This document shows positions 20,134-21,907 of a stretch of 35,417 bases of DNA, piece by piece. Within the stretch, counting starts at the first letter, position 1. Each line of letters opens with the position of its first letter. The notes beneath the pieces were generated by a model that was given only the letters and a program-made list of their open reading frames with translations, did not search any database and had not been told where the DNA came from. The stretch spans positions 1 through 35,417 of the forward strand of contig JAJOKO010000149.1 of the NCBI GenBank assembly GCA_021129825.1. The letters run 5' to 3'. A program made the position numbers and the translations under genes. The DNA comes from Desulfotomaculum sp. GTDB taxonomy: Bacteria; Bacillota; Desulfotomaculia; Desulfotomaculales; Desulfohalotomaculaceae.

Positions 20134-20310
20134 ATGGCGGAAGTTAAAGTAGGTAAAAATGAAACATTGGATAGTGCTCTCCGACGTTTTAAGAAATCCT
20201 GCCAAAAGGCCGGGGTTATGTCTGAAGCGCGGAAACATGAAGTTTACGAAAAACCAAGTGTTAAACGCAAGAAAAAATCAGAAGCGGCTCGGAAGCGCCG
20301 TACGTTTTAG
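20134..20310 (+). CDS. rpsU: 30S ribosomal protein bS21
   Basis: Small basic protein of the 30S subunit, involved in mRNA start-site interaction. The 58-residue protein reads [19 protein letters not shown] and ends with a very basic tail ([13 protein letters not shown]). ATG 20134 is preceded by GGAGGGG (20121-20127) at 6 nt; the longer frame from 20107 has no such support. It ends the heat-shock transcription unit, with a strong terminator at 20357-20396. Confidence 0.97.
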
Positions 20311-20345
20311 ATAGATTATCTATAAGTGTTTCTCTGTAAATATTA

Positions 20346-20375
20346 GTAATTTGGTGACCTCCTTAGGCATATAAT
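20346..20375 (+). promoter_or_regulatory. Possible sigma-E-type promoter of yqfC in the terminator
   Basis: CATATAAT (20368-20375) matches the sigma-E -10 consensus CATACAmT in 7 of 8 positions and occupies the hairpin loop. A weak -35 candidate, GTAATTT (20346-20352), lies 15 bp upstream. Transcription would start near 20382, after the 5' arm. The -35 match is poor, so this is tentative. Confidence 0.35.
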
Positions 20376-20396
20376 TAAGCCTAAGGAGGTTTTTTT
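20357..20396 (+). terminator. Rho-independent terminator of rpsU that contains the yqfC ribosome binding site
   Basis: A perfect 12-bp stem, ACCTCCTTAGGC (20357-20368) with GCCTAAGGAGGT (20379-20390), a 10-nt loop and a run of seven T (20390-20396). The yqfC ATG follows at once at 20397. The 3' arm holds AAGGAGG, the only Shine-Dalgarno available to yqfC, and the 5' arm is its exact complement. Read-through RNA would therefore both terminate and hide the yqfC start. Confidence 0.92.
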
Positions 20397-20684
20397 ATGG
20401 TCTGGTCAGGTTTTGAAAAACATATCAAAAAACAAATGGTGAATTTATTAGAAATACCCAGTGATATAATGCTGGATTTGCCTAAAGTTGTAGTTGTAGG
20501 TAATTTACAAGTGTTTATTGAAAATCACCGTGGTATTATTGAGTATACCTCTGAATTAATCAGAATTATTGTGGAAGATGGTGAAATAAACATCAGCGGT
20601 GAAAACTTATCTATCAGAAATATTATGGTGGATGAACTTATAATAGAAGGTAAAATCAAAAGTTTAGAACTGCGGGGTGGATAA
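20397..20684 (+). CDS. yqfC: Sporulation protein YqfC
   Basis: A small protein of the YabP/YqfC family, made under sigma-E control in Bacillus sporulation; its biochemical role is unknown. The 95-residue protein has family features LLEIPSDIMLDLPKVVVVGNLQVFIENHRGIIEY and a C-terminal SIRNIMVDELIIEGKI beta-rich region. It has no signal peptide or membrane helix. ATG 20397 uses AAGGAGG (20383-20389), which lies in the 3' arm of the upstream terminator. yqfD follows after 2 nt, the standard pairing. Confidence 0.94.
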   Translation: MVWSGFEKHIKKQMVNLLEIPSDIMLDLPKVVVVGNLQVFIENHRGIIEYTSELIRIIVEDGEINISGENLSIRNIMVDELIIEGKIKSLELRGG

Positions 20685-20686
20685 AT

Positions 20687-21907
20687 TTGTTTTTGTTTAA
20701 ATTGATATCTTATTTGTTTGGACATGTTTTTTTGGTAGTGAAGGGAAATTCGTTAGAAAAATTTATTAATATGGCTGCTAACCGGGGTATTTATTTGTGG
20801 GATATTACTAAATTAGGAGCAAATAGAATTAGGGTGGGCGTAAGGCTTTCGGGGATTAGACCGCTTAGACATATTGCCAGAGAAACAGCTTGTAGATTTA
20901 AAATTAAATCGCGGGTAGGAATACCTTTTATTGTTGAACGTATGAAAAAAAGAAAAATATTAGTTGCAGGAGCCTTTATATTTGTTATAGTATTATATAT
21001 ATTATCATCTTTTGTATGGTTTATTGAGATTGAGGGTAACGATAAAATATCTGGGAAAGATATTTTATTGGCGGTCCGGCAGGTTGGTTTGTCTGAGGGA
21101 GTTTGGAGAGGCGATATTGATACTGCTGTGATAGAGCAAGCGATAAAAGATAAACTACCAATAGTGGCTTGGGTAGGAGTATTTATTGAAGGAACAAAGG
21201 TCCGGATTGAAATTGTAGAGAAAAAAATAATTGGCAACGAAATCAGCGATCAACCTACTCATATAGTAGCTACAAAAACTGGCTTATTGCAGGGAATTTT
21301 AGTATTATCCGGTCAAGCAGTGGTAGCAGAAGGTGATGTTGTAGAGGTTGGCCAAGTGCTGATTTCAGGCGAAGTAATACCGGAACAAACTATCAATCAA
21401 AATAACGGGGTGATGGATTTACCCCGTTATTTGCAGGCCCAAGGGGTGGTACGGGCCCGGGTGTGGTATGAAGGATATGGAGAAGCTAAATTAGTTGAGA
21501 TGTTAATCAAACCTTCTGGTAAGCAGACAGAGCGTTTCAGTATTAAAATGGTTGGTCAAGAAATAATTTTAAAAGGACCGTCGCAAATACCATTCACAAA
21601 ATATCAAAGTGAAATTACAGTAAAAACTTTTCCTCTTTGGAGGGATTTTGCAGTGCCTGTAGAATTTATTAAGGTACAATATTTAGAATTAAAAAAACAT
21701 CGTGAAGAGCGCACTAAGACAGAAGCACGTAAACTGGCAGAACAAAAAGCGTGGTCACAAGTAAAGTTGAAATTACCAACAGAACATAAAATTTTAAAAC
21801 AACGAGTAGAGCATATTGAAACGGAACAGCAAGAAAATTTGGTGCGAGTAAAAGTATTAGTGGAGACATTGGAAGAGATCGGCACAGAAAAACCTTTCCA
21901 ACCATAA
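20687..21907 (+). CDS. yqfD: Sporulation membrane protein YqfD
   Basis: A sporulation protein of the YqfD family, co-expressed with yqfC in the mother cell and related in part to SpoIVFA-type membrane proteins. The 406-residue protein has an N-terminal cytoplasmic region with SGIRPLRHIARETACRFKI-type sequence and one clear membrane helix at about 90-112. A large external domain with IEIEGNDKISG and WVGVFIEGTKVRIEIVEK follows, and the C-terminus is charged and coiled. The start is TTG 20687, 2 nt after the yqfC stop, with GGGGTGG upstream, implying translational coupling. It is about the usual family length. Confidence 0.93.
   Translation: MFLFKLISYLFGHVFLVVKGNSLEKFINMAANRGIYLWDITKLGANRIRVGVRLSGIRPLRHIARETACRFKIKSRVGIPFIVERMKKRKILVAGAFIFVIVLYILSSFVWFIEIEGNDKISGKDILLAVRQVGLSEGVWRGDIDTAVIEQAIKDKLPIVAWVGVFIEGTKVRIEIVEKKIIGNEISDQPTHIVATKTGLLQGILVLSGQAVVAEGDVVEVGQVLISGEVIPEQTINQNNGVMDLPRYLQAQGVVRARVWYEGYGEAKLVEMLIKPSGKQTERFSIKMVGQEIILKGPSQIPFTKYQSEITVKTFPLWRDFAVPVEFIKVQYLELKKHREERTKTEARKLAEQKAWSQVKLKLPTEHKILKQRVEHIETEQQENLVRVKVLVETLEEIGTEKPFQP

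Follow-up and report, generated by a model that had tools for sequence, protein, structure and literature searches.

A promoter-bearing hairpin at the rpsU-yqfC junction of Desulfotomaculum sp. as a probable insulator of a sporulation gene against read-through

The sporulation gene yqfC of Desulfotomaculum sp. lies directly behind rpsU, a growth gene read in the same direction, which raises the question of how yqfC is kept silent when transcription of the upstream operon does not stop. We investigated this junction in a window of 35,417 nt, which is a whole contig of a draft genome (1.58 Mb, 86% complete) belonging to an order represented by 113 genomes. A first-pass annotation had read the junction as a terminator whose stem also locks the yqfC start, with a sporulation-type -10 element inside. 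The present analysis supported this interpretation, and each of its structural predictions that was open to comparison came out as predicted.

Direct reading and folding with ViennaRNA, which supplied all folding energies, confirmed that the 3' arm of the hairpin holds the yqfC Shine-Dalgarno sequence (SD), that the 5' arm is its anti-SD, and that the T-tract reaches the ATG (Table 1). The stem spanning positions 20357-20390 comprises 12 Watson-Crick pairs and is extended by a G·U pair (G20356-U20391). The fold of positions 20330-20420 had an energy of -26.6 kcal/mol (z = -3.45), and none of 200 shuffled sequences was as stable; when the SD side was held fixed and the 61 nt upstream were shuffled, the observed energy was reached by 2 of 2000 sequences. 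The hairpin has the structure of an intrinsic terminator, a G+C-containing stem of 12 bp with a U-run (seven T) directly after it, and, as in locks of the phage T4 gene e type, the SD is paired in RNA initiated upstream (folds of 20330-20420 and 20340-20426), with a pairing probability of 0.9995. The pattern CATA..GGAGG..TTTTTATG occurs a single time in the assembly, at the yqfC junction. Simple terminator and promoter scans did not flag this element, the former because it permits loops of 3-8 nt only (the loop here has 10 nt), and the latter because the promoter is of a non-sigma-70 type.

Table 1. Features of the rpsU-yqfC junction and its flanking genes (positions in the window)
Feature	Position	Strand	Evidence
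rpsU (ribosomal protein S21), co-directional growth gene facing the element	20134..20310	+	TIGR00030, E=4.9e-22; stop at 20310
Candidate sigma-E -35, TAATTTG, 14 nt before the -10	20347..20353	+	Sequence; GTnAT/TAATTT block conserved in relatives
5' arm ACCTCCTTAGGC, anti-SD and promoter spacer	20357..20368	+	Folds; arm-swap and pair-type tests in relatives
Candidate sigma-E -10, CATATAAT; its C closes the stem, the remainder lies in the loop	20368..20375	+	Sequence; CATA position in relatives
Loop ATATAATTAA	20369-20378	+	Sequence; 10 nt
3' arm GCCTAAGGAGGT; predicted sigma-E start within (about 20382-20384)	20379..20390	+	Fold; start predicted
yqfC SD, AAGGAGG	20383..20389	+	Folds of 20340-20426 and 20383-20426
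T-run of 7, both terminator tail and SD-to-start spacer	20390..20396	+	Sequence
yqfC, sporulation protein, ATG at 20397	20397..20684	+	TIGR02856, 95.1 bits (cut-off 77.8)
yqfD, begins 3 nt past the yqfC stop	20687..21907	+	TIGR02876, 316.9 bits

Sigma-E promoters of B. subtilis carry a -10 element like CATACAnT and a -35 element like kmATATT, separated by about 14 nt. Compared with this general consensus, TAATTTG-N14-CATATAAT matches at 5 of 7 positions in the -35 and 7 of 8 in the -10 with the expected spacing, and as a sequence it is a good candidate for a sigma-E-type promoter. The -35-like element is an addition to the first-pass annotation, which had named only a sigma-E-like -10 in the loop; the -10 is indeed present, although it does not lie wholly within the loop. 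The arrangement TAATTT-N14-CATAnAnT is kept in families with and without the hairpin alike, the GTnAT/TAATTT block keeping its spacing in 33 genera that have the hairpin and in 7 that lack it, and in nearly all yqfC genes of the order CATA is found 25-33 nt ahead of the start codon. This position agrees with the earlier proposal that transcripts from the promoter would begin inside the 3' arm. With the start placed about 15 nt downstream of the C in CATA, the sigma-E transcript is predicted to begin at the first base of the SD, with the 5' arm absent and a leader of about 15 nt, and the promoter boxes are conserved at a fixed distance; a start shifted by a few bases from the position predicted by the -10 distance would trim the SD. 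The predicted native RNA (20383-20426) folds weakly (-3.0 kcal/mol), and its SD is unpaired except for the last base. By analogy with B. subtilis (PMC517825) and C. difficile (PMC3789822), in both of which yqfC is a sigma-E gene, yqfC of Desulfotomaculum sp. presumably depends on sigma-E as well.

We consider it probable that the yqfC hairpin is a read-through insulator working at two levels, as a terminator and as a translational lock, and that it is bypassed by its internal promoter. RNA polymerase coming from the rpsU operon would transcribe both arms, and the stem and U-run would bring about intrinsic termination of the upstream RNA. In RNA that reads through, the SD would be locked in the stem, leaving yqfC untranslated; judging from the spacing of the two genes, yqfD is likely locked along with it through translational coupling. 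Such a block would act during growth. Sigma-E polymerase, on the other hand, would start at the promoter that uses the 5' arm as its spacer and has its -10 in the loop, and the resulting RNA, beginning at about the SD and lacking the 5' arm, would escape termination and be translated. Directly downstream of yqfD are phoH and further growth genes (ybeY, era), and if termination at the hairpin were complete, the genes from phoH to era would need promoters of their own.

The prevalence of the element was examined in 104 yqfC genes from the 113 genomes of the order, which are drafts and in which start codons were picked by SD and position. A composite rule, which required the SD to pair with upstream bases at -14 kcal/mol or lower and CATA to lie between the two arms, was satisfied by 73 of the 104 yqfC genes and by 1 of 290 other gene starts, taken as background from 195 kb of this genome and from the relatives' loci; the thresholds were set after the yqfC set had been seen and were applied to the background unaltered. 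The mean SD pairing probability in 120-nt windows separated the groups more poorly than did stem energy combined with promoter position. According to the first-pass annotation, relatives whose stem and SD do not overlap would speak against its reading: the overlap extends to the 73 genes above, among cultured relatives also to the loci of Desulforamulus and Desulfoscipio type strains, but is absent from families f5, f9 and f15, where most yqfC genes face a divergent selD and there is no upstream transcript to block.

The presence of the element followed the orientation of the upstream gene. Lock, loop promoter and T-run occurred together at 57 of 67 co-directional loci, compared with 3 of 23 divergent loci, and counting by genus gave ratios of present to absent of 27:8 and 2:10, respectively (p = 0.0004, kinship ignored, with upstream orientation partly confounded with phylogeny). 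The co-directional neighbours upstream of yqfC were rpsU, floA-yqfB-like genes or a small gene of 80 aa, and the divergent neighbours were mostly selD. Since the promoter boxes are kept in both orientation groups, promoter and hairpin evolve separately, and it is the hairpin that tracks the danger of read-through. That this hazard is real is shown by B. subtilis, where the sigma-W operon yqeZ-yqfAB reads into yqfCD (PMC3498285). Of the 10 co-directional loci that lack the element, six carry an ordinary terminator immediately behind the upstream gene. Exceptions to the pattern were one genome in which the element is present next to a divergent selD (G069), and three with a co-directional rpsU in which the element is missing and no terminator was found (G080-G082). 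The small 80-aa gene, located co-directionally between selD and yqfC, is intact in the majority of f4 genomes and in both f18 genomes; it is apparently degraded or lost in some (f4 loci L079, L080, L086 and L141, genomes G027, G030, G026 and G025), where the yqfC hairpin is still there.

Pattern scans not tied to yqfC revealed the same architecture in the order's other genomes at spoIIP, spoIIM, spoVR, a cwlD-like amidase gene and a few others. The element was present in many copies of one spoIIP type among 47 spoIIP loci checked, and in several spoIIM genes among 30 loci checked; the spoIIP starts were chosen by SD strength, and the counts are not to be read as rates. When the rule was varied slightly and its energy limit dropped, 2 of 27 spoIVA and 3 of 24 cwlD genes satisfied it, and the element is therefore not universal. 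Outside the order, in other families of Bacillota, 8 of 63 yqfC genes satisfied the original rule, and their stem sequences are unrelated. In B. subtilis, spoIIM, spoIIP, cwlD and yqfCD are sigma-E genes (PMC517825). On balance, we lean towards the view that the sigma-E regulon of Desulfotomaculia-type bacteria, and of some other Bacillota, makes repeated use of an SD lock with a promoter inside a terminator, and that selection maintains this device. It would recur where spore genes follow growth operons, and one set of bases would act as spacer of the promoter, as anti-SD, as stem of the terminator and as ribosome site, so that the choice of promoter alone would set both elongation and translation.

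Individual loci whose hairpin has the SD in its 3' arm and CATA in its loop, usually with a T-run before the start, were seen at spoVR (L262, L263, L249), the cwlD-like gene (L258), spoIIP (L247, L248, L253, L254, L255, L259, L261) and spoIIM (L245, L298, L307, L309, L310). Most genomes of the order have 2-4 spoIIP-family genes (loci L247, L248, L253-L255, L265, L269, L276, L326 and others), and the lock is seemingly limited to one type of these. At six further spoIIM loci (L302, L305, L306, L312, L315, L323), SD-locking stems of the form GCCGCTC..GGAGCGG carry CATATA in the loop and mostly have no U-run, so that from their sequence they are apparently locks without a terminator. Many spoIIM loops also contain TGGACAGG, which is similar to the SpoIIID site, whose consensus is GGACAAG.

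The spoIIM stems that hold the SD without a U-run indicate that the lock is separable from the terminator, and they fit a reading in which the yqfC hairpin, too, is a translational lock only, its U-run being a spacer with weak terminating activity and read-through feeding phoH, ybeY and era while yqfC stays silent. The direct continuation of yqfD into phoH and more growth genes would suit this arrangement. A mere spacer, however, would need neither the enrichment of T before the start (at least six T in the last 7 nt at 72% of yqfC genes behind a co-directional neighbour and at 1.4% of the 290 background genes) nor the tie of the T-run to a co-directional context, and we regard this explanation as rather unlikely. 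We judge it quite unlikely that the hairpin is simply a terminator that ends the upstream operon, with the SD overlap a by-product of compact spacing. Its good stem with a U-run and the position of most elements downstream of a co-directional gene are in keeping with such a role, but space is not limiting: the distance from yqfC to the upstream gene ranges from 54 to 1525 nt (median 113), and 12 of the 57 co-directional loci with the element have a separate upstream terminator too. Moreover, spoIIM genes of several genera (L302, L312, L315, L323) hold the SD in a strong stem that lacks a U-run, and the register of SD, U-run and start codon at yqfC is maintained across the order.

The arms of the stem were compared among genera. 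RNAalifold recovered only 4 pairs from a MAFFT alignment of 69 sequences because the alignment was out of structural register, and alignment-free arm tests were used instead. Across 36 genera, a genus's own arms paired with a mean energy of -19.5 kcal/mol, compared with -15.3 kcal/mol for swapped arms (z about -9; 0 of 5000 permutations as good), and the same swap test detected no preference for own arms in the hairpin-less families. At inner stem positions, C-G, G-C, A-U and U-A pairs all occur among the genera, revealing the covariation of stem arms that the earlier annotation had proposed to look for in related genomes. The sense RNA was more stable than the antisense RNA in 32 of 36 genera (p = 3e-6), and non-Watson-Crick positions in the stem comprised 62 G-U pairs versus 3 A-C mismatches, which argues for selection on RNA of one strand and not on DNA symmetry. 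At the level of comparative sequence, these tests show that the hairpin arrangement is maintained by selection acting on RNA.

An inverted repeat around the -10 could instead be the binding site of a repressor on DNA, since operators typically show dyad symmetry across a -10, and in B. subtilis SpoIIID represses yqfCD (PMC517825). This is very improbable, as the inner stem sequence varies freely between genera with pairing kept, and the surplus of G-U pairs over A-C mismatches, like the greater stability of the sense strand, requires RNA of one strand; neither the conserved sequence nor the strand-symmetric mismatches of a protein operator were found. Although SD-sequestering terminators are typical expression platforms of riboswitches and attenuators, a hairpin that opens on a signal is the least credible reading, for the window gave no Rfam match at gathering scores and no conserved aptamer or alternative pairing was seen upstream of yqfC in relatives, where the promoter boxes are the only conserved block.

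Protection of a gene from impinging transcription is familiar from mobile elements: in IS200, a terminator and an SD-sequestering stem-loop jointly silence external transcripts, and in IS10, transcripts from the internal promoter escape. In these elements the protected gene is a transposase gene and not a spore gene as here, and to our knowledge neither uses one hairpin fused with a promoter. In the present genome, the SD of an apparent REP/IS200-type (Y1) transposase gene (L156, contig C9, minus strand, start 15906) lies within a perfect CCCCTCCTAATC..GATTAGGAGGGG hairpin that has no CATA, resembling known transposase read-through locks.

Translation-initiation hairpins are described for phage T4 gene e (lysozyme), soc, 49 and I-TevI, in which the SD is locked in long transcripts initiated upstream and RNA from a late promoter close in front of the ribosome site lacks the 5' part of the structure; gene e, with a reported effect of about 100-fold, is the classic case of a late promoter bypassing an SD lock (PMC3014915). 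The yqfC junction resembles gene e in the predicted pairing of the SD in upstream RNA, and its own promoter is predicted to bypass this lock. The T4 genes are phage genes under a phage late sigma factor, and the accessible text describes no intrinsic terminator in the same hairpin (PMC3014915), whereas yqfC is carried on the chromosome and serves sporulation, and the hairpin at its start has a U-run resembling that of a terminator and, in its loop, a -10 of the sigma-E type. In B. subtilis, sigG is likewise a sporulation gene that follows a different transcription unit; there, a large hairpin that PsigG transcripts are unable to form has been proposed to keep read-through from PspoIIG untranslated (PMC5942855). 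That system involves a sigma-F/sigma-G promoter, a hairpin of 20+ bp and read-through from another sporulation operon (PMC5942855), in contrast to the sigma-E-type promoter, upstream growth operon and stem with a terminator U-run at yqfC. At the corresponding B. subtilis junction, read-through from yqeZ-yqfAB reaches yqfCD measurably, the very problem that the element would solve, and the accessible part of the report describes no hairpin lock there (PMC3498285). The principle is thus known from T4 gene e and sigG. In the open-access literature, we found no description of a single hairpin that unites the spacer and -10 loop of a promoter with a terminator and an SD lock, or of the use of such a fused hairpin across the sigma-E regulon, an absence that is not proof of novelty.

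If true, the insulator would explain the growth-phase silence of spore genes embedded in dense growth operons, with no extra space or regulator, and the sigma factor that starts an RNA would decide whether that RNA is finished and translated. Its sequence signature would also help to spot sigma-E genes exposed to read-through in spore formers that cannot be cultured, and its compact design could be tested as an insulator in B. subtilis.

Two further observations were made outside the known sporulation genes. The sole background start that satisfied the composite rule (1 of 290) belongs to a gene of this genome identified by eye as encoding a YtaF-like membrane protein (L149:16555, contig C1). 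The gene starts with TTG; a T-run reaches up to the start, and GGGAGGGG lies in a hairpin with CATATA upstream. A hairpin that likewise pairs the SD and holds the promoter in its loop is found at a gene for a trypsin-like protease-like protein with a NAL1-like N-terminus (L246, L256), which may be a sporulation gene not recognised so far.
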